A DNA stretch of 64,000 nucleotides, from positions 12,884,593-12,948,592 of the forward strand of contig OZ020516.1 of assembly GCA_963971425.1 (NCBI GenBank). Reading direction: 5' to 3'. Shown piece by piece: positions 3,001 to 16,606 of this stretch. Made by a program: the position numbers and the translations under genes. The stretch comes from Bryoerythrophyllum caledonicum (lineage: Eukaryota > Streptophyta > Bryopsida > Pottiales > Pottiaceae). Each line of letters begins with the position of its first letter. Position 1 is the first letter of the stretch. The notes below the pieces were generated by a model that was not told the DNA's origin, searched no databases, and saw only the letters and a list, made by a program, of their open reading frames with translations.

Positions 3001-3931
3001 CAGTGATTTAATGAATTGGAGTTGTAGATTTTGTTCTAAAACGTACCCATGGTGTAGATGATGTTTAGCTTAATCCAAGTAGATTGTCTCTGACATGTGG
3101 TCGAGATGGGCACTAAAAGGATTAATGGTTCTGAGATCATTTCAGAATCATCCTCTTTAAAAAATTAAAAAACAAAAGACTGCTCTTTCACTAGAATGTT
3201 ATAATGATTGATGCCCCTCACAGAGTTTTCCTTTTGATTTTTTTTTCATTTATTTCAGGTTTGTTGGGAGGTTGTTTGTGAAAGCAAATGGAAGGCCTTT
3301 GGATATCCTTGAGAAGTTGAGTGAGATGGCTGGATTTCCAACCAATGAGGAACTCAGTCTATATGAGGTATGTTGTTTATTTCTGAAATTGATTCATTTG
3401 AGTACCTTGAAGTTAGGTCAGGAGGGAACTTTAACCTCTAAAGGACCCTCGGGGGACATTTGTTTTCACTTTAATTACAATTATCTTTCAATCCGCACGG
3501 ACATAATTCACAAGATTTTACCACATTATCTTCTATAAGTCTAGAAGAAGATCCTATGGATACATTCTAAAAAAGTTCATCTCGATAGTTTTTAATCAAT
3601 GGAGTAGAGATTCTTCTAAAATGCCTTGGTACATGAGAGGTTAAATTATGAAGCTGTGGTTTGAATTTGTAGGAAATCAAGTTTGAGCCAACTGTTATGT
3701 GTGAACATGTTGACAAGAAATCAACTTTCCGGGGCAGTCAGGTTTGTATTATACCCAAGCATCCATATATTGGATTATAAAAGAACAATTTTCAATTGGC
3801 TTAATTTCTTATTAAAAAACATTTTCAGTCATCCATTTTATGAAGATTGTTTATCTAATTGCAACTTATATGTAAAAGTGATTGTATTGAGTGTTGAAGT
3901 GGGTATTTTCATTTAGTATGAGCATTTTGAG

Positions 3932-3997
<66 letters not shown>

Positions 3998-6900
3998 TTG
4001 ATGAATCCATAAATGAATTTGGAGGATTGTTATCATGATCTAGATTGAAAGGATCTGATAATTGTATATAATGGGTGCCTTAAAATAACATTTTTGATTT
4101 GTTGTTTTTCTGCTGGACGCACAGTTAGAGAATGGTGATATCATATGCTACCAAAAGTCTTTCACAAAAGAAGAGGAGAAAAATTTTCGATATGCGGATG
4201 TGCCATCATTTCTGGAATATATTTGCAACAGACAGGTATAATGATTCCAAAGCAAATTTTATTTCAACTACACTAAATACCTTCATTAATGCGAAGGTGC
4301 AATTTTCACACATAGAAAATATTTTACCTCATGATTGAAGATATTGGCATAAAAGAACATTTGTAAGTACGATCCAATCGACCATCAGGTTTTTTAAAAA
4401 AAAGGAAATGTAAAATGTCTTGATTTTACCAATGTGAATGTATACATCACTATCGTTTAAAGAAAGATCTCTAAACACAACAGATCAAGTTCCCCTTATC
4501 TCTATAACTCTAATATGTTCCTTTGGAGTACATGTTGAAGATTGTACACTTCCGACGCTTGGAGAAGCCCAAAGATGATGAATTTTGCATTGAGCTGTAA
4601 GTATCACAAGAGCAATCAATAGTTCCAAATATGCATACTCATTAAGTATAAAAATATAAAGTATTATTACATTGATTATCCCTAATAGTGCCACCTAAAC
4701 TAATTAATCCTCTAATGTTGTAACTTTTTGCATTTAATGAAGTGCGCTAATTAAGGTATTCCTAAATAAATACACCTTTTCTCTTGGTAAAATTATTAAA
4801 AAGTTTTAGCATAAAGTACATAGTTTGTGATCGATTTTGTGAATGTTGAGATAATTTGTTTGGATTACAAAACTCCTAAGAGAGATGGCGTTGTTTTTTT
4901 TCAGGTCAAGGCTACACACATATGATGATGTGGTGGAGAAAGTGGCTCACAAGCTTGGACTTGAGGACCCCTCCAAACTCAGGCTCACTTCACACAATTG
5001 CTACTCTGAGCAACCAAAGCCCCAGCCTATCAAATACCGTGGCGTGGAAAGGCTTGGTGATATGCTTGGTCATTACAACCAGGTTAGTATATTGTCAAAG
5101 ATTCCTTTTCTAAGAAAGTAATCTTTGAAGGTTAGGAGTTACGTGGTGGGAACTAAGAGTTTGGTCAAGAAGCTTCAATGGTCCTTGAATAGTAAACTTT
5201 GCCATGTATGTGCAACTAATGGTTAATCTCTTAGTTTTTATTGTCTAACTTCAAACCATTAAAGATATTTTCTTCTTAGCCTCATTAAAGAATAAGCTTA
5301 CATTGATTTGCCAGCTACTTGTTCTTTAGGTCACTCATCCAAAACAAAGTGGATGAGTTTACAACATATTTTTATCTTGTGGTTTATTTGAAATAAATGC
5401 TTGTGTGGAAGCAGACTCCATCAGATATACTCTATTTTGAGATGTTGGAATTGCCACTTCCTGAGCTGCAAGGCTTGAAGACCTTGAAGATTGCCTTCCA
5501 CAATGCCAAAACAGAGGAGGTAACTTACTAGCCAATTATAATGAACAAGAATTACATTGAAGATCTGCATTCCATCTCTCTAGTGGCTTTCTATTTTCTT
5601 TGTTTTCTTTTTTTTGAATTAAGTTACTTGAATTCAGTTCTTTATTACAATTTATTTCAGTTTACTTAAAATATTAATTTTGTTATTGATTTGTAAGGGA
5701 GTTTCTTTTGCTGAACAACAATAAAAAAGACCCTTGAGTTCTTCTTTTTTTAAGTCACCTGTAGTTTGAACAAGATATCCTTTTTTTTTGGTTATGATAC
5801 TATTAATTTTCCACCTTAAGATCTAACGGTCTGTCTATTTTTTTTGCACTACAAGAGAGAGAGTAGGTCATGTTGTATTGTGAATCTTCGTTATTCTTCT
5901 GCTTGTAGATGTTTGGAGCTATTTAGGGCTGATTTTAATTTCTTAAAATTAGTGGTCTTTGCCTCACTTCTCAAATACCTTCACTAAATTGATGAGTGTT
6001 TCCTTAGGTCATTTGATATCTTCTTTTGAATCCTAGAGAGCTTCTCTAATTCTTTTTTTCTGCAGGTATCAGCTCACAGCATCAGGTTGCCAAAGCAAAG
6101 TACCGTAGGCAATGTTATCAGTGAGTTGAAAACCAAGGTAATAAACCCTCAACCGTGAATCACTTAGCCCTTAAATGTCATAGAAATCTAGGAAGATTGG
6201 AAAAAGGCCTTTGTGACTTTCCTTCTAATGCCATTTATGATGGATGCCTCCTCATCCTCATCCTAATATTGATATTGTTTGGTAGACCAAGAGCAACCAT
6301 TGTTCAAGAGATGACGTGGAGGAAAATTATTAAAAGCTTTAGAAATTTTAACTAAATATATGGATTTGCTCTCAACAAAATAAAATAGTTATTAATATAT
6401 ATATTAATTTTTTTGGGGGGGGGTGTTTGGTCAGGTGGAGCTTTCAAGTCCAAAGGCTGAATTGAGAATATTGGAGGTCTTCTATCACAAAATATATAAG
6501 GTGGATGCCAACCTTTGCAAGAGAGTATTGTTAAAGTTTGAAATATGTATTTTGAATATTCATCTTTTTCAAAACTAGAATGGAGCTTCTTCTTTTTTTG
6601 GATAAAATTTTGGATGAAACCGTGGCATCAAGATTTTGTCGAGAATGTTGATTTAATAATATAGATTTATAATGTGTATATGCAATCTAAGTGTTTTGTA
6701 TATTTGACTTTAGCATTTTTGTTACATATTCATCGAAGGAGTGAATGCTTTTAGGAATACATTGTTATAACATTCTAGAATCAATGCAAAAGTAGCCTTT
6801 TGCCTTTTGCAAAAAGATTTATTGAGCCACACCAATGTAATTTTATTTTTCTAAGTTGCTTTGTCCATTGTTGATTGCTCAAGTAGTTTAAGAGGTGTAT

Positions 6901-9709
6901 AGCTCATTAGGAATTGAATTCCAAACTTGAATTTTGTGTTGGATAGATTTTTCCCCTAAATGAGAAAATTGAGAACATCAATGATCACTATTGGACACCA
7001 CGAGCAGAAGAGGTTTGTCTCTTCTTCCTCTCTATTTCAAATCACTATATATTTGTAACTTTGAGAGCATTCCACATGGAAATTAACTCATACAAAAAAA
7101 ACCTTCAAGCACACAATGGATTGTTGTAAGGATATTAAAGGACGCATTGTTTTCATAATGTCTCCATAATTGATTTATATAGTATCAAATAATAAATGGC
7201 TTCAACTCTTGAATTATATCTATCTCAATATGTACATGTTTGATTATTTTCAAATACATTTATAATGCCTATAATAGAATTAGAATTTTTTTCAACATGC
7301 ACTTTTACTATGACATGTGTTCTTTTATCAAATACTATCTTGATCAATTAGAACATTCCCATCTTTTGAAATTGAAATATGGTTAAATGAATCATTAAAT
7401 TTATGATTAAAAAAATGGATGTAGGTTCCGGATGAGGAGAAAGATGTGGTTGGTCTAGACCGTGTGATTCATGTCTATCATTTCTTGCAAGATCCTGCTC
7501 AAATTCAGATGGTAAGTAAAAGAATAACTAAACCTTCAAAAAGATGATGCTCCTCCTTTTAAGTATACTACTACTCCTTTCCTTGCTCTCAATAGCTATT
7601 TGTTACCAAAAGAATTTGCAGATTATTTTCAATTAGAATCCTTCTTCGATTCAGTCAATGGAAGAGCTTGGTGGTTGTTGAACTATAGTTTTAGCTGCCT
7701 TTGAGAAGGAATGAGAGGTCATGAATCTTAGCCACTTTTTCCCTTAGTTATTTAGGATTGGTCTTAGGAACTAAAAATAAGAAAAGAGTGAAAAACTCAT
7801 GATATCTAAGCCTCACATTAAGAAAGTAATTTAACTAATAGCCATGAATGAGTTCCAAAGGCCTCAATTTTGATCGTCAAATTTTCAAGTGAGTTATCCT
7901 GAAAATGTGGGGTATGAAATCTTTTGTCACCTCCAACAATAGAGTCTTATATTAGTAACCAAGACCACATAGAGCTGAGGGTGAATTGGATGAGGAGAGG
8001 CACTGTGGAGGAACTATTTGTCAAACTTAAATAGAGATTGCCATTCCTATGCATGTAAAGAAAGATAGCATGAGATTTGCTCATGCTCAATTAATTTTTG
8101 TAATTTAAATCTTGCCTTCTATCTGACCCTCTCTTCACAGTTATTACCTTCGGCCTCATACAACTTTCCTCATATGAAAGGACTTTCAGGATTACTCATT
8201 GTCCAAACCATCATTTCATATATTTTTATTTTTTTGGCACAAGTAGTTTTTTTTTCTTTTCTATTTTCTATTAGACTAACTGGGTTTATAATAACAGGTT
8301 CAAAACTTTGGTGAGCCCTTCTTTTTAGTTGTGAAGGAGAATGAGACTTTGGCAAAAGTAAAAGCAAGAATCCAGAACAAATTACAAGTGATGGAAGAAG
8401 AATTTTCTAAGGTCCGTTTGCTAATTTTCTATTTTCTAAGGAAATTTCTAGGAATTGCCAACATGAGTGAGAAAGGGAGCAACTACATCAAAGATTTATT
8501 TTAAAAATTTGGTGTAATGCCTTTGTGTTCATTTTTGGTGTAGTTGCACCCATGAGTAATAGCTATAAAGCTTTTGTTAACGAAGAAGCAAGTATGACTA
8601 TTTAATTTTTAATTTTTTTTGCAGTATAAATTTGCATTTGTGTCACTTGGCCGCCCAAAATACTTGCAAGAGGAGGATGTTGTTGCAAATTATTTTCAGG
8701 TATGTCAAAAATAAGTGTAATATATAGGACCGTTTTTGGCCTCTCTTCTTCTAGAATATTCTCAAGGAATAATTGCTTTCATCTGTGGAGAATACTTAAT
8801 TTGTTTTAGGCAATGCATGGAATTTCAGAAGAAAGAGACATATGGTGCTTGGGAAAACTATTTGGGTTTGGAGCATACTGATTCAGTTCCCAAGAGACCC
8901 CACCCAACCAACCAGGTACAATCGTTTTATAGATTTAACATTTATTTTTAACTCATTTTTATAACACCCTAAATTTACAACTGGAGTTCTTCTAGAGTCA
9001 CCCAAACTTTTAACCCCTAATGGACCACGGCCAATTTTAGAGGAATCTCTATCCTATTGATTAAAAATTGCCAAGATGAGCTGTTTGAGAATGTAACTCT
9101 AGGATCTTCTTCTTAACTTTTATAAGTTGATGTGGTAAATTTTTTTGTGAATTTTGATCATATAGATTGAAAGATGATTGTAGTCGAAGTGAAAAAATAA
9201 AGTCCCTCCAAATAGACACTTGGCCCTTTAGGGGTTAATGTACACTTGATAGCTCTTGGATTTGTATGTAGACTTGGTGGACTTAAACTCAAGTTACAAG
9301 TAATTTTAGTTGCCCTTCAGAAGGAGAAGAGAGAGGTCATGTTGTGCCATCAATCTTAGCCACCTTTTTTTTAGATAAGTTGAGGGCTAATTTTTTTATT
9401 GAGAAAAGAGGGCAATATTGTAATTCTAATGTTTCAAATTGTATTAATGTTATTTGTAATGTTCATGAAGATAGCATTGCTTTGGTTTTTAAAAATACTA
9501 TTTTCTTGTCCTATATAATTATAGATTAATATAAGAACTTGGTGGTCTTTGACCTAGAATCCTTCAAAGGAGTATGGAAGAATATGATGGTCTCTAAACT
9601 TAGATATTTAGCTTAATATTTAGCTAAATATCTAATTAATGTACACTATGTGCCCCTCTTATTGCAGATTCGCCACACCTTTGAGAAGCCTGTGAAAATA
9701 TACAACTAA
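1..9709 (+). CDS. UBP12/13-like: UBP12/13-like ubiquitin hydrolase, C-terminal part (5' end outside window)
   Basis: Deubiquitinase of the USP7/UBP12-13 family, a cysteine protease removing ubiquitin from target proteins. Only the C-terminal 671 residues are here. Exons: 1-59, 470-548, 640-786, 937-1017, 1356-1475, 1588-1710, 2200-2280, 2385-2473, 3259-3367, 3673-3741, 4125-4235, 4541-4596, 4905-5082, 5415-5519, 6066-6137, 6435-6500, 6947-7012, 7425-7511, 8298-8411, 8625-8699, 8829-8915, 9668-9709. All joins are GT-AG and in frame. The first exon carries the catalytic His box GGHYYVYIRPN; exon 3 (KYSNAYMLVYIR) closes the USP catalytic fold. Then follow the USP7-type ubiquitin-like regions, with KEDVLLFFKLYHPEN, LRLTSHNCYSEQPKPQP and LRILEVFYHKIYK. 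It ends KPVKIYN, the usual plant terminus. The catalytic Cys box and N-terminal MATH domain would lie upstream. Introns are long for the exon sizes and hold repeats. Confidence 0.95.
150..375 (+). repeat. Interspersed repeat, UBP intron 1 (copy 1 of family R1)
   Basis: Intron sequence beginning near GGAAGAGCTTGGTGGTCTC and running through GAGGTCACGAATCTTAGCC to TCTTTGCCTCAC. Related, diverged copies lie in introns at about 1838-2100, 5845-5970, 7625-7825 and 9258-9420. No open frame is maintained between copies, so this looks like a decayed non-coding transposable element rather than coding exons. Confidence 0.7.
1070..1260 (-). repeat. Helitron-B-related fragment in UBP intron 4
   Basis: The reverse complement of this stretch resembles the AT-rich interior of the Helitron-like element at 49166-49744: both have TATAATGGGTA followed by ATTTGATTT, preceded by tandem AAAGTRAATA-like runs. 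No terminus could be recognised here, so it is called a fragment. Confidence 0.45.
1838..2100 (+). repeat. Interspersed repeat R1, copy 2 (UBP intron 6)
   Basis: Same order of landmarks as the copy in intron 1: TTAGAATTCTTCAA, GCCTTTGAGAAGG, GAGGTCATGAATCCTAGCC, a TTTAGAACTAATTTTAG stretch, then TTTCTTTGCCTAAC. The similarity is obvious by eye but broken by many substitutions and small indels. Confidence 0.7.
3431..3644. mobile_element. MITE with TTAACCYCTAAAGG ends (UBP intron 9)
   Basis: About 214 bp bounded by TTAACCTCTAAAGGACC on the left and the inverted GAGAGGTTAA on the right. The reverse complement of 9010-9238 aligns along its whole length, including TATCTTTCAATC, AGAAGAAGATCCTA and TTTTTAATCAAT blocks. 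The two are therefore opposite-oriented copies of one short TIR family. There is no coding capacity. Confidence 0.7.
3930..3997 (+). repeat. (TTA)n microsatellite in UBP intron 10
   Basis: Uninterrupted TTA/ATT trinucleotide run of roughly 20 units inside an intron. It is a simple repeat and likely length-polymorphic. Confidence 0.95.
7625..7825 (+). repeat. Interspersed repeat R1, copy 3 (UBP intron 18)
   Basis: Contains GGAAGAGCTTGGTGG, GCCTTTGAGAAGG, GAGGTCATGAATCTTAGCC and a terminal TCTAAGCCTCAC block in the same order as the copies in introns 1 and 6. Confidence 0.65.
9010..9238. mobile_element. MITE with TTAACCCCTAAAGG ends (UBP last intron)
   Basis: A 229-bp unit starting TTAACCCCTAATGG and ending CCCTTTAGGGGTTAA, an inverted pair. 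Its interior is the reverse complement of the 3431-3644 element. It lies just upstream of another R1 repeat fragment (about 9258-9420) in the same intron. Confidence 0.75.
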
Positions 9710-11300
9710 GAAAGTTCAAAAAGAATCAAAAAATTAATAATTAATCAAAATTTTGATTTAAGAACTAAATTAATGTATTTCAAGAGCATGAAAACTAAAT
9801 TGATTTAAAATTAAGTTGTCCCTACCACTATTGGTTTTTCCACAAGGTGAGAGTGGTATTGAAATGAATGTAATTGTGAAATCTAGGATTGTTAACATTA
9901 GACATAAATTTTTAAGGTAGAAATTGTCCTTCACCTTGTAGCTTTTGGTGTATGGATGTATGAAGGAATTTACTAGTCTTTTGTATATTAGCATACTGAG
10001 ATTGCATACATGCCCATCTCCTTTGTTCTTGTCTTCTTTTAACCCTTTAAGGCCTACAAGCTCACAAGGCTTAGTAGAATCTATGATTGTAATAGATCAT
10101 GTGGAACATCTACACAGGGTAGATTTTATTGCTATCACTGTAGTTTGCCTGATAGGTTTTGGTACACATGCTCACTATATTTAATAGAAGCGCATTCATT
10201 TACCCAAGTTATTACAGTTCATGGATTAGGCTATTTGCATATTATTTAAAGAATGACCACCTATGGGCTCTTGTCCTTAAAGGAAATTTTCAAGTGTTCA
10301 CATGTTCTATTTGATAAAGGAATGTTCAAGCTATTGAAGGTTTCAATGCTCTTAAAAGTTATATAATGAAACAATATAGAACTCAATCTATACATTATAA
10401 AGGATTCCATAGAAGAACAAATTTAAAGAAGTTTTGTAGGGCACAACTAAGGCCCATGTTGATAACCTGATTTGGGTATTGTAAATGTACCTACATCTCT
10501 CAAGGATATAAAATGACAACAAAAAATATTATGTTGATGTTTCAAATCAATTGAACAAACCTACCCACCTTTCTTGAACATTGTTTACTTCCATGCAATT
10601 GTACTACAACATCACTAACTACAACATATATCCTCTAAATGCATCATCATTGAACACCATTCAACTTGGAAAAAATCTCAATGAGAGTCTTTTTAAGGTG
10701 AAAGAAAGAAAGTAATTGAAATATCTCCTATTTGCACCATGGGGAGAAATCAAGGGACGTGATTGTGCTATCCTAGAATGTCTTCGAGATATAGATAAGG
10801 AATAATTTAATCCATCAAATTCTTCCTATTTCTTAAATGTGTAAACAACTCCATAGAGTAATTTGACCCTTGTTGTTGGCCAAGAGATTAGACACACCCC
10901 TTTAATATGAACAAGAATTTAATTTTTTTGTTTTTAGTAGGATGTTTTTAGATGGCTATATTAAATTTTGCCTCAACTTTTCATCTATTTTAAAGCCATG
11001 TACAAATGGAATATGGAATACAACGGAATGCATTTATTTATATTTGGAATATAAACACATGTATTTTGTATGGGTAGAGCCTCTATCATGAGGGATTCTT
11101 TGGGTAGAACATATAAGATAGGTTTTGCGTGCCCGCGCACCGCCCGAAAAAATTCCTTTTGATGTCTAGGTTTTTTGGTGGGAGGGTTATTCAATAGGAG
11201 GGATTTTAGCCATGAGATTTCAAGATCCGTGCCACGTAGGATATTCTACAAGGAAAAGTGTAGAATGAACAGGATCAAAACCCCTCTGGGTGTTACATAT
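9710..11300. other. Gene-free stretch after UBP stop: 3' UTR and AT-rich spacer
   Basis: The first few hundred bases presumably hold the UBP 3' UTR and polyadenylation site. The rest is AT-rich with stops in all frames; no exon-like segment with splice sites and family resemblance was seen. A GC-rich patch near 11130-11150 (GTGCCCGCGCACC) is locally palindromic but I could not tie it to an element. Confidence 0.5.
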
Positions 11301-12119
11301 TTAACCCGTAGAGGCCCAAAGCATATTAACACCCAAACTCACTAAAAATTGCCACTTTCAAGGCAATCAGCACAAAATGCAAATCGACACAGTTATTACA
11401 TACCTGACCATAGGATCTTGTACTAGGATTGTACAAGTGTATGTGGTAAAATTTTTGTTGAGTTTAACCACACAGGTTGAAAGATATCAGCCTTTGAAGT
11501 GGAACATAACCTCCACTTGAGGTCATAACTAACCACCTTCATCAAACTTCGACCACCTTCTATGGCAAAGTTTAGCACTTCGATCCGTGATTTTCTAATT
11601 TTAACTCAAAAAGGATCATGTTAAGCACATGTGCACCAAATTTTAGAAGTAGAAGAGGGGTAGAACATGTCTTTACAAATCCTGCAATGCAACCATGTGC
11701 TAAGAATCAACAATACACTTCAAGTTTTGCATTTATCATATCCTTTCCATATTTTTGAAATTCAAAAATCCGTACAATAGATGCAAAGATTTCCATTTCC
11801 TTTTCAAGAGGAAATTTTCTTCTTTTCAGTTGGACTAAAACTTGAATTTCTATTGAATTTAGAATTAATCAAAGTTTTGCAACACTATTTGTTGTATGTC
11901 ACACCAAACCACTGCACTATTTGTATATGTTACTCAAAAACAATTGTAAGTTTTAAACCACAAGTCAGATTTCTACGAAAATTATGTTTATAGAAAACTA
12001 ATAAAATGTTGCCTATTCAATAAAAAATCCCAAAAAATCATGCCTAAATTTGCGAATGTGGTACCCTATCCAAACTCAAAATGTCCCTGGGGGGGGGACA
12101 TTGGGCCTTTAGGGGTTAA
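11301..12119. mobile_element. TIR element, TTAACC family (819 bp)
   Basis: Left end TTAACCCGTAGAGGCCC, right end GGGCCTTTAGGGGTTAA. The interior is the reverse complement of the sequence at about 38030-38770 and 63390-64000: shared blocks include ATCTTGTACTAGGAT, AAATTTAGGCAT and the TTTTGAGTTTGGATA segment seen inverted. No transposase ORF, so non-autonomous. Confidence 0.7.
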
Positions 12120-12514
12120 CCCTTTGGTGCCAAGCATGGCACAGAAGACCTCGGAGATTCTACAATTGTGGTAGATTATGCGAATCATCATGTACACATT
12201 GGATACATATCATTGCAACACTAATTCACGGAAACCACTGTTCTGGAGGCTGTAGTCGTCAAATTTGGCATTCGAGAGTTGCATGTGATTCCAAATTTCA
12301 AGGCGCACCTCCATTTTGAGATAGGTAAAGCCCACAAGTCGATGGATTCATCGATATTCTCCCAAAATAGTGCCTGGATACAGTGTACGGGACTATAAAG
12401 GTTTGACCGATTCCGTAAAATACTACTCAAAACCTCAATAAATGGCTATTCTCGAAGATTCTGCCCGACTCTCGCCCTTGTCCATGACCGCCTCAGCAAC
12501 GCCTGTGCATCAAG

Positions 12515-12785
12515 CGGGTATCAGACCTGCATCACCCGTACATCGACAAGGTATCAGCCTCGAAGTGCCTTCTCGGCCATCCCCCAAACCGCTATTTAAG
12601 TGGGCGATGCAGATGCACCTCAGTATCACCATAGTATAATACTAGTATCACCTGAGTACCACCCAGGTATCAGTTCCCCGATACAGAGGTGCTAAGTAAG
12701 CGGCGATTAAGATCAAGGCAGACGCGCCTCAGTATAACCAGAGTATAGGAATAGTATCACCCGAGTATTGTGTAGGTATCAGTGC
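12515..12785 (+). promoter_or_regulatory. Cluster of seven GTATCA(C/G) motifs upstream of the trihelix gene
   Basis: GTATCAG or GTATCAC occurs at 12518, 12551, 12623, 12645, 12667, 12754 and 12776, all in the same orientation within 265 bp and ending about 170 bp before the start codon. The context is also repetitive (AGTATCACCNNAGTAT, ACCCAGGTATCAG). Whether this is a factor-binding array or a decayed tandem repeat cannot be decided from sequence alone. Confidence 0.5.
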
Positions 12786-12952
12786 AGAAGCGCATTCCTT
12801 GTGTCTGATTGTTCTGCGACGTGAAGGTGCGGCGATGAAGGTCGTGGGTGGATGCGGTGGTGTTGCGTCGGAGGTGGAATCGCGACGGAGGAGAGATGGT
12901 GGATTGAGAGAGAGGAGGATGCGGAGGAGGTAGAGGCTTAGGGTTTGCGGCG

Positions 12953-15538
12953 ATGGAGAATGGCGTAGGTGGCATTGGATATGAGGGAGGAGTAGTGGTG
13001 GAGGCGATGGCGGCGGCGGCGGAGGAGGAGGAAGGGCCGACGACGCCGACGACGACGGCGACGGCGGGGCCCGACGAGGTGGACAGGAAGGAGCGGATGT
13101 ACAAGAAGGGGCCGTGGAGTGTCGCGGAGATGCTGGTGCTGCAGTCGGCGAAGCGCGAGGACGTGGTGCGCGCGGGCAAGGGCGTGCACCGCACGGCGCA
13201 GGAGAAGTGGCAGAGCATTGAGGACTTCTGCTGGGCGCAGCTCGTGCAGCGGAGCGCGCAGCAGTGCCAGGACAAGTGGGAGTCCATGAGCGCCGAGTTC
13301 AAAAAGGTCAAGGACTTCGAGTGCGGCGGGATGCTCCCCGGCCAGGAAATGTACTGGCAGATGACGATCGACGAGCGAAAGGCGGTGCGCGTCCCGCCGA
13401 ACTTCCAGAAGGAGGTTTACTCCGCGCTCTGGCAGTGGTACGATAAGAACCGCATCGTCGAACCAGGTACTGTCGTCGTCACAACCTCTCCCCACAAACA
13501 ACAGAAACTGTGGCGAAAGTCATGTCAAATTGTTGTTGACAATGATTCATGTTTCTCGATCCTCACAAGTATGTCAGAATTGCATTTACTCTGTGTCTGA
13601 TCGGTCTCAGCATGAATTGATGTAGAAACGTTTCTAGGATTGGTCTTTTCAAGGTTTCGAATGAGACTGTGCCAGGGTATTGCTGATCTCGATACTCGAG
13701 CGCAAGGATTGAACGTGCTAGTGATTCTTTAAAAGGCTTTTGAAAGAGACTGTTGATATAATTACAAGGTTTTTTGGATATTTGACCGCAAGGATTGAAC
13801 ATGTGACAGGCAGTGGGATGGTTTTGTCATCCAGCATTTCGAAAATGGAGGATCTGAAGGCGCACTCGCCAGTAGCGGGAGGATCTTCGTCTCCATCTGG
13901 AGTTTTGTCATCACAGAATAGAAAGAGACCTGTGGATCAGCGGGCTGTGACTCGGGTGCCTCGGAAGCTCCCTCGAGGTGAAGGCATCTCAGTGCCGATG
14001 AACTTTGATCCTCGGCTCATGACTCCAGGTGTGTGTGCTTGTTGATGTGTGCTTTCTATGATGTTTGATATAGTTTAGCCAGGGCTAATGAAACGTAATT
14101 ATTGTTTCTGAATGTGAATCCAAGACAGCCGAAAGAGAAGCTTGTTCTGTTTTCGAACTCGGCGATTTTGTACTCAGGGAAGGTGCGACGTTGAGAGGAG
14201 CCAAGTTAGCGTACAAGACGTGGGGTACAATGAATGAGGACCGCAGCAATGCGATAGTGTACCCGACTTGGTTTGCGGGCAGGCATTGGGAGAACGACTG
14301 GCTCATTGGGCCTGGCATGGGCTTAGATCCCTGTAAATATTTCATCATTGTTCCTAACATGTTGGGCAATGGTCTGTCCACTTCTCCAAGCAATTGCCCA
14401 CCCCCATACAACAAGGCTCGCTTTCCTAAGGTCGTTTATCTGCTTAATCTGTTTGCTCAGGCGAGACCTACCGGAATGGTCTTTGTTCTTTGGTGTTCAA
14501 CTATCAGTTGTAACATCCTCTATGGAAATGCAGGTCAGGGTGGAGGACAATGTCAGAGCACAGTATAAGCTGGTGACTGAAAAGTTTGGAATTCGGAGGC
14601 TGAAGCTGGTACTTGGCTGGGCCATGGGGGCTGGCCAAGCTTTTCAGTGGGCGACTAGCTTTCCTGATATGGTTGAGCGCATTCTTCCTGTCTGTGGCTC
14701 AGCGCGGACAAGCCCACACGCTGTTGTAAGTTGAACGACAACATTGCCATAGGGTGATTAATGAATTCAGATCCTTTTGTCGGGACCTTCTTGTAAATTA
14801 TTCAGTGCGGAGAAGACTTTGAAAGCAACAAACGAAGATGCTGCAATTCTGTTTAGTATTCATTCTGTGTTTGGTGAATGGTTCCGCAGGTCCTCTTGGA
14901 GGGTGTCAAGGGAGCTCTTACGGCTGATAACTCCTTTCAGGATGGTTGGTATGAAAAGGCACCATCAAAGGGCCTGCGTGCAGTTGCACGGGTTTATTCA
15001 GGCTGGGGATTCTCACAAACATTTTACTGGAATGAGGTGCGCCCATCCTGAACTGATCAAGGCACGCCCTCTAGTTGCAAAGCAGTTAGAAATTCCTGTT
15101 TTTGGATTGTTGATTGTTTGTTGAGTTTAGTAACTAACGGTGCTGTTTGTGGGAGTGTAGGTGTGGAGGGAGATGGGTTACTCAAGTCTGGAGGACTTCT
15201 TGGTAGCGTTTTGGGAGGGTTTTCTCTTGGACCGAAGAGATCCAAACAACCTGCTGACTATGTTGTGGACTTGGCAAAATGGTAACCTTGGTTTTACTGA
15301 AGGGTTTGAAGGGAGTGTGGAGAAAGCTTTGGCCTCCATTCGAGCCAAGGCAATTGTTGTGCCGGCTCAACAGGATCTCATTTGTCCCGTCTCTGATGCA
15401 GAATACGAGGTTAAGTTTATGCAAAATGCAGAGCTTCGAGTTCTACCTGGTGTATGGGGTCACTTTGCTGGTGCTGGCCTGAATGCAGTTGACACAAAGT
15501 TTATTGACACTGCAGTGCGCGATCTGTTGTCAATGTAA
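12953..15538 (+). CDS. Trihelix DNA-binding domain fused to homoserine-acetyltransferase-like alpha/beta hydrolase
   Basis: Exons 12953-13466, 13810-14028, 14129-14430, 14534-14725, 14890-15036, 15161-15538 give 583 residues. Residues about 51-171 form a trihelix (Myb/SANT-like) domain with KKGPWSVAEM, TAQEKWQSIED and QQCQDKWESMS. A basic Ser/Pro-rich linker follows (172-244). Residues 245-583 are a homoserine O-acetyltransferase-type hydrolase: GAKLAYKTWGT, VYPTWFAG, DNVRAQYKL, VERILPVCGSARTSPH. Catalytic Asp530 (QQDLICP) and His559 (WGHFAGAG) are present, but the nucleophile elbow reads GWAMGAGQ, so the usual Ser is Ala375 and acyl transfer is unlikely. Both linker introns are phase 1. The hydrolase exon has no ATG before its first strands, and only about 80 bp separate it from the exon 2 read-through stop at 14045; I therefore model one fused gene. 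A separate trihelix isoform ending at 14045 remains possible. Confidence 0.72.
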
Positions 15539-16145
15539 TCTACTCACATAACGTCTCATTATTAGTGTAAAAATACCTCGCATTTTCATCAGGTTTGTAC
15601 GTAGATGTAGAGAAACAACACTTCAGGCTCCAGATGCAGCTGCTGCTGCTGCATCTGCATAGGTCTTGAATTGGAACATTGGAAGCGAAGGAACATCGTT
15701 TCATTGTGTGTCTGCAGGTTTTCCTTGGGACCACATACAGGTAAGTCGTGTTATTTTCCGCCAAGATAACCACTTGTATACTTCTCCTTCAGAAGGAAGT
15801 TAGCAATTTTGTACAAAGCTAGATCATTACTATGAATAATTGATTCAGCTCCTACTGAGCTAGTTGACTGCAATCTTATCATTCATTTGGTACAGAAACG
15901 TTTGATGTTGAAGTGTATAAAGCATGGATTCCATGATGCACACCTCAATTAATATCCTCATGATACCATGCTAGTATTTCACCTCGTGTAATTGATATCC
16001 CCCCATACTATGGCGATACCAGCCCTATATCCGGCGTACAATCCCAAGCAGCATGTGAGGAGTGCTAGCAAGTCCGCTTCTCGGTTGACAACCGCCTCTA
16101 TCCTGACGCGATGCTATCTTTATACTACTGATGATTCTAGCTTTA
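15539..16145. other. Spacer after the fusion gene
   Basis: Probable 3' UTR followed by spacer. Inverted versions of the upstream GTATCA motif (TGATAC at 15960 and nearby GCGATACC) appear before the foldback element. No coding signal was recognised. Confidence 0.45.
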
Positions 16146-16606
16146 CCCTGAAGCATCAGTCGGGAACCGTATATACAGGCACGTATTTTACTCTGTAGGA
16201 TACAAAAAATGTACTAAAGTTTAGCAAGACTTGCACCTTTGGATTGAAGATTCTTCAACTAGCATCCTTCATTTGGAGGTCATTTCAATAGATCTGGACC
16301 TTATCATGTTTAAGTATGACATTATACATGTCGAATACTATGGCCATCAATGGTTGCTTCTAACCTTTAAGGGTTGACCCTTAAATGTTACAAGGTGCCA
16401 GTACTGGCCATAGTATTTTACATATATGGTGTTGTATTGGGAACATGATATGGTTCAGATTGATTGAAATGACCTCCAAGTGAAGGATGCTAGTTGAAGA
16501 ATCTTCAATCCAAAGGTGCAAGTCTTGCTAAACTTTAGTACATTTTTTGTATCCTACAGAGTAAAATACGTGCCTGTATATACGGTTCCCGACTGACGCT
16601 TAAGGG
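16146..16606. mobile_element. Foldback (long inverted repeat) element
   Basis: The left arm (16146 to about 16352) is the near-perfect reverse complement of the right arm (about 16397-16606); the outer roughly 140 bp of each arm differ at only a few positions. The outer ends read CCCTGAAGCATCAGTCGGG and, inverted, CCCTTAAGCGTCAGTCGGG. A loop of about 45 nt contains its own palindrome (ACCTTTAAGGGTTGACCC). A transcript through it would fold into a hairpin of about 200 bp. No ORF; best read as a foldback MITE. Confidence 0.85.

Follow-up and report, generated by a model that had tools for sequence, protein, structure and literature searches.

At positions 12953-15538, on the plus strand of the window (the whole 64,000-nt stretch of DNA analysed here, from contig C3), lies a gene of six exons, whose product carries, in this order, a trihelix DNA-binding domain, a basic linker and an alpha/beta hydrolase of bacterial type. 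This enzyme-domain transcription factor, new, unusual and testable in its combination of a trihelix domain with such a hydrolase, is very probably real. Taken as a whole, the data are best explained by a trihelix factor whose bacterial-type hydrolase became a ligand-binding or oligomerising module, a reading that we consider rather probable, though far from secure.

All introns of the gene are of the GT..AG type, and the exons (Table 1) add up to 1752 nt, that is 583 amino acids and a stop codon. The first-pass annotation had described two modules in one phase-compatible exon chain, and this description is borne out, as phase 1 is found on both sides of exon 2 and both Pfam domains are recovered from the same chain: Myb_DNA-bind_4 and, at residues 310-452, PF00561 Abhydrolase_1 (35.9 bits, cut-off 25.8). 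The trihelix position was reproduced by the genome-wide search with 44.5 bits. By its Myb/SANT-like domain the gene belongs to the trihelix (GT) factors, related genes of which are present in the genome, while the helix-rich C-terminal region, usual but not strictly defining for these factors, is absent, the linker and the hydrolase being found instead. The basic stretch of exon 2 is NLS-like when read by eye. The scan of the window for Rfam families and tRNA genes gave no match.

Table 1. Features of the fused gene in the window and exons of its paralogue (paralogue positions are those of locus L017)
Feature	Position	Strand	Remarks
Exon 1	12953..13466	+	start codon, low-complexity N-terminus, trihelix domain (Myb_DNA-bind_4) and extension; ends in phase 1
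Trihelix DNA-binding domain, residues 54-121	13112..13315	+	PF13837 Myb_DNA-bind_4 (Pfam), 40.7 bits, cut-off 27
Exon 2, symmetrical phase 1-1 linker, 219 nt	13810..14028	+	carries the basic stretch NRKRPVDQRAVTRVPRKLPR
Intron 2, separates the two domains	14029..14128	+	on read-through the trihelix protein ends at 14045
Exon 3, alpha/beta hydrolase begins	14129..14430	+	exon chain; NF005757 match
Exon 4, nucleophile-elbow region	14534..14725	+	exon chain; alignment with bacterial relatives
Codon of Ala375, nucleophile position	14621..14623	+	alignment to 80 bacterial relatives and the paralogue
Exon 5, hydrolase	14890..15036	+	exon chain; paralogue
Exon 6, end of hydrolase and stop	15161..15538	+	Asp530 (15374-15376) and His559 (15461-15463) kept
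Paralogue, exons 1-6	3092-3779, 3990-4199, 4367-4668, 4772-4963, 5140-5286, 5791-6168		phases as in the window copy

The search for the hydrolase in the 437-Mb genome (894 contigs; threshold E 0.001; all six candidates were scored) identified two loci only, the window and C12:8246365-8248164. In the second locus (L017) a trihelix exon again lies just upstream of the hydrolase, and the exon count, phases, domain order and linker are all repeated. Translation of L017 is taken to start at 3092, where the first ATG in frame follows a stop at 3077. Exons 3-6 have identical lengths in the two copies (302, 192, 147 and 378 nt), while the linker exon, 219 nt in the window and 210 nt in the paralogue, differs by alignment gaps of 3, 9 and 3 nt that keep the frame in both. 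Intron 2 is 167 nt long in the paralogue. Identity over aligned bases is 68% in the linker exon and 56%, 49% and 51% in introns 2, 3 and 4, respectively.

The silent divergence between the copies is high (dS 0.6-1.5). In the hydrolase (NG86, 339 codons) dN is 0.056 and dS 0.92, so that dN/dS is about 0.06, and 305 of the 339 residues are identical. The corresponding values are dN 0.118 and dS 0.62 for the trihelix domain with its extension (121 codons, dN/dS 0.19), and dN 0.164 and dS 1.47 for the linker (69 codons). The N-terminus alone (46 codons, dN 0.61 vs. dS 0.85) looks nearly free. The existence of two copies in one genome points to an old join that has been retained, the age and spread of the fusion resting on this single duplicate pair. 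A chance join or an assembly join is ruled out by the same structure on a second contig, and contamination by the GT-AG introns within a 38-Mb contig and by the existence of two copies. The 17.4-24.0 kb region of the window also matches the C12 region, and this shared neighbour block points to a segmental duplication. In the window the block follows the gene on its 3' side, while on C12 it precedes the paralogue on the 5' side, hence the segment was duplicated and rearranged and is not simply collinear.

The hydrolase domain belongs to the bacterial subfamily NF005757/PRK07581, scoring 502.4 bits in the window and 519.4 bits in the C12 copy, with a curated cut-off of 332. The NCBI model of NF005757 spans 339 positions, and its family carries the name hypothetical protein. 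Assignment to MetX homoserine O-acetyltransferases was rejected, since both models of this enzyme stay under their curated equivalog cut-offs (TIGR01392, 139.3 of 500 bits; NF001209, 135.7 of 331). The label "homoserine-acetyltransferase-like", given to the domain by the first-pass annotation, is thus appropriate at the superfamily level, while as a family name it has to be replaced, the close match being NF005757 and not MetX. With these scores, and with the catalytic serine lost (see below), the link to homoserine activation raised there is disfavoured as well. The best matches among solved structures are PDB 5d6o (E 8.8e-69) and 5e4y (E 3.4e-64), which we take to be CgHle and MekB, acetyl-ester hydrolases homologous to MetX. 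These hydrolases are active enzymes, deposited as homoserine O-acetyltransferase, while the window copy has Ala in the nucleophile position.

The prokaryotic relatives show up to 75% identity, reached by actinobacterial genes. From 124 pattern-matching stretches, 113 were found to encode a relative, and the best 80 of these 113 were kept (loci L030-L109). A quick tree built from 82 rows joins the two plant sequences as sisters (support 100), on a branch of 0.55. With a midpoint root, the pair falls among all 33 actinobacterial rows with support 94, just below the starred level, while the smallest starred set beyond the plant pair also takes in five cyanobacterial rows (97), hence the actinobacterial placing is not firm. 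Transfer from bacteria into the plant lineage would fit these observations, drawn from prokaryote-only searches and from this genome.

Genes adjacent to the bacterial hydrolases were studied by tblastn of neighbour proteins against the 80 loci, with flanks of up to 3 kb (15 loci are shorter than 6500 bases). Relatives of a CN_hydrolase amidase were found in 26 loci and those of an FmdA_AmdA formamidase in 21, while an ABC ATPase (an unspecific query) has relatives in 29 loci and a periplasmic-binding-type protein in 24. An amidase or a formamidase is present near the hydrolase in 46 loci, at least one of the four neighbours in 63 and none in 17, all these being counts without a random-locus control. 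According to these neighbours, the bacterial NF005757 hydrolases possibly have a role in amide use, and the ligand of the plant domain would perhaps be a small amide or acyl compound.

Comparison with other trihelix genes of the genome indicates how the join could have arisen. Past the trihelix domain, the first GT preceded by G, taken as a donor-like site, falls in phase 1 in all nine family members examined, which makes intron 1 look ancestral. Seven other relatives were read, and six of them (L110, L112-L116) are unfused. Downstream, in the place taken by the hydrolase in the fused genes, these six show an open frame that contains a basic patch as well as a long stretch of charged residues, exemplified by LACILKVNNTRVIGAMMESEDRKDKRHREDMDMEEKKLEFEREKFRGTMQLGVGYI in L115. 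We read this stretch as a coiled coil or, more generally, a helix-rich C-terminus; Pfam, run on the downstream frame of L115 alone, recognized no family there. Replacement of the last exon behind the phase-1 intron is the simplest account of the join.

The seventh relative, L111 (G000:C14:14033600-14038700, minus strand), has no helix-rich C-terminal region of the kind seen in the others. In the nine-row domain tree it groups with the fused pair (99/99), though with a branch length of 1.13, which makes its placement unsure. A weakly matching linker-like exon (E 0.059) is followed in L111 by a long open frame that extends to the end of the fetched stretch and has no Pfam match, while by its appearance it looks like a BED/hAT transposase. 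This gene may represent another fusion within the trihelix branch of the fused pair, or else contain a nested element. In L113, L114 and L115 the trihelix match falls into two parts, suggesting that in these three genes the DNA-binding domain is interrupted by an additional intron, which would be absent from L110, L112 and the fused genes.

The two fused proteins differ in the active site. The nucleophile position is occupied by Ala375 in the window copy (GWAMG), while it is Ser in all 80 bacterial relatives (GWSMG) and in the paralogue (GFSMG); that this Ser acts as nucleophile is deduced from aligning the domain with PDB 5d6o and from the known biochemistry of MetX. Asp530 and His559 are kept. 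The window copy has neither the complete Ser-His-Asp triad that characterizes MetX nor the Ser of the GWSMG motif that characterizes NF005757. In the C12 copy Ser, Asp and His are all present in conserved contexts. The 80 bacteria share 94 invariant positions. Six of these (375, 408, 411, 446, 532 and 533) are lost in the window copy only, one (374) in the C12 copy only, and four (293, 294, 301 and 347) in both. Residues 532 and 533 are two and three positions after the catalytic Asp in the sequence. The paralogue has oddities as well, Trp294 and Phe374 in the window numbering, where Ser and Trp, respectively, are found in 80 of 80 bacteria, and hence the activity of either copy may depart from that of the bacterial enzyme.

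The window copy seems to change faster than the paralogue. Relative-rate counts (window to paralogue) with four outgroups are 17:5 (p 0.017) in two cases, 15:7 (p 0.13) and 15:6 (p 0.08), so the data lean towards this conclusion, being significant with two of the four outgroups. As a serine hydrolase the window copy has very likely lost its activity, yet as a protein it is kept, and the missing nucleophile is a hint that the domain serves for sensing and not for catalysis.

The following history would account for these features. A bacterial, perhaps actinobacterial, hydrolase gene would have entered the plant lineage and become attached to a trihelix gene, downstream of its conserved phase-1 intron. 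The fused gene would then have been duplicated, with both copies retained, and the window copy would have lost the nucleophile serine and further residues invariant in bacteria, purifying selection continuing all the while. The fused protein is expected to work in the nucleus, binding DNA via its trihelix domain, while the hydrolase domain would serve as a non-catalytic module that binds a ligand, dimerises, or both, and in this way adjusts DNA binding or activation. The sister protein, which retains all three of Ser, Asp and His, could still bind the ligand as well as turn it over slowly. The first-pass annotation had suggested a metabolite-sensing regulator; the loss of catalysis under continuing purifying selection fits this suggestion, sensing itself being what we infer.

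The strongest rival is that the fused protein is real but its hydrolase is only a scaffold for dimerisation or protein interactions, which replaced the helix-rich C-terminus and senses no small ligand. We regard this as possible, although on balance doubtful. The unfused relatives L110 and L112-L116 do have a basic patch and a charged stretch in the place of the hydrolase, MetX-type hydrolases are dimers, and loss of the catalytic Ser would suit a scaffold equally well. On the other hand, a scaffold has no obvious need to replace the nucleophile and two residues near the catalytic Asp while the domains remain so nearly identical, and the paralogue retains Ser, Asp and His. A more specific form of the sensing hypothesis, which we put forward tentatively and hold to be on the unlikely side, is that the factor directly senses a small metabolite through the horizontally acquired bacterial hydrolase, of which one duplicate would have given up catalysis and the other retained it, so that the first would read the signal and the second both read and clear it. 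The metabolite would then perhaps be the amide or acyl compound suggested by the bacterial gene neighbourhood.

It is improbable that the protein, at least the C12 copy, is an active hydrolase, nuclear or tethered to chromatin, which makes or removes a metabolite at the target genes, with the window copy as a dead regulatory partner. The conserved contexts of Ser, Asp and His in the C12 copy speak for activity, but the window copy has no nucleophile, and the C12 copy itself has Trp294 and Phe374 where all 80 bacteria have another residue.

As an alternative, the first-pass annotation had offered two overlapping genes. In this model, taken here to include adjacent genes, the trihelix gene would stop at 14045 and the hydrolase would have a gene to itself. 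The spacer is indeed short, and read-through of intron 2 reaches a stop after a few codons. The hydrolase coding sequence, however, has no start in either copy. The earlier observation that the hydrolase exon has no upstream ATG is confirmed and extends to the paralogue: upstream of exon 3 an in-frame stop is met after 12 codons in the window and after 9 codons in the paralogue, with no ATG before it. The first in-frame ATG within exon 3 is at 14230, and a start there would drop the first strands of the fold. Nevertheless, the first 33 hydrolase codons, preceding the first Met, are strongly constrained at the protein level, with 19 silent and 2 replacement codons between the copies. The absence of an ATG before the stop in both copies and the constraint on these codons mean that the hydrolase must be spliced to an upstream exon.

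No other conserved first exon for the hydrolase was found by blastn of 9000-16600 against L017 (E up to 0.1, plus strand), where all five blocks fall on the six exons. In tblastx of the same regions, the matches listed include two short ones 3' of the gene and none that is non-exonic upstream. As the hydrolase needs an upstream exon, and the linker exon, in frame in both copies, is the only shared candidate seen, overlapping genes are very unlikely, and the fusion is very probably real as far as DNA alone can show. A trihelix-only form ending at 14045 may possibly arise by retention of intron 2, and a hydrolase-only form may possibly start from an in-frame ATG at 13818 in exon 2. The lost nucleophile and the leaning towards faster protein change could indicate that the fused gene is decaying into a pseudogene in the window, but this is hardly credible, given the intact reading frame and splice sites of all five introns and the low pairwise dN/dS in both the hydrolase and the trihelix part.

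Bacteria routinely use one-component regulators, in which a single chain carries both the DNA-binding and the ligand domain. To our knowledge they are rare in plants, BZR1-BAM being the case known. The bacterial NF005757/PRK07581 hydrolases resemble the fused protein over the whole hydrolase domain. They differ from the window copy in the nucleophile Ser, and we know of no fusion in this family. Plant alpha/beta hydrolases have become hormone or ligand receptors in GID1, where the triad is broken, and in D14/KAI2. Unlike the fused gene, these are separate proteins with no DNA-binding domain, and they belong to other hydrolase families.

BZR1-BAM proteins are described as combining a plant DNA-binding domain with a beta-amylase domain whose catalytic residues are poorly conserved, and as nuclear in Arabidopsis (PMC6394054). 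The same source proposes a link of metabolic signalling to gene control and reports conservation in most flowering plants, and its authors state that no sequence with BZR1 and beta-amylase domains together was found in bryophytes and lycophytes (PMC6394054). The fused gene shares with BZR1-BAM (Arabidopsis BAM7 and BAM8) the combination of a DNA-binding domain with a whole enzyme-like domain whose active site is impaired. It differs in having a trihelix domain instead of BES1/BZR1 and an alpha/beta hydrolase instead of beta-amylase, and neither domain of BZR1-BAM was detected by the Pfam scan. BZR1-BAM is the closest known design, which by analogy the fused gene would resemble in its working and not in family membership. 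An alpha/beta-hydrolase domain has also been recruited into a regulatory protein in the Hyd-NLR immune receptors of bryophytes (PMC11218826). These are NB-ARC-LRR receptors with an N-terminal hydrolase and with no trihelix domain, the comparison being one of domain make-up.

Among the literature matches listed, no trihelix-hydrolase fusion is named in titles or in the beginnings of abstracts. If the proposed working is true, the fused gene is a second, independent plant case after BZR1-BAM, in another DNA-binding family. The natural pair of a catalytic-looking and a catalysis-dead copy would provide a direct way to test the change from enzyme to sensor, and would likewise bear on how horizontally gained genes enter plant gene regulation.

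Several other features of the window and of the genome were observed. Just 3' of the fused gene, window positions 16223-16338 and 16413-16529 match one stretch of C12 in opposite directions, forming an inverted-repeat (foldback) element. The regions at 53.9-54.8 kb and 58.4-59.6 kb of the window are dispersed repeats, each with many matches in the C12 flank, and are probably transposable elements. The psaA sequences of two plastid-like contigs have their closest matches in the PDB chains 8htu and 6l35, from photosystem I of Physcomitrella, which makes a moss or a near relative the likely host. Among the plastid-like contigs, there are two different intact psaA/psaB pairs (G000:C894:44676-49041 and G000:C821:55046-59411). 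The C821 pair has Ser at several sites where the C894 pair has Leu or Phe, with at least one site reversed, and looks as if C-to-U RNA editing were needed, or as if two plastid sources were present.
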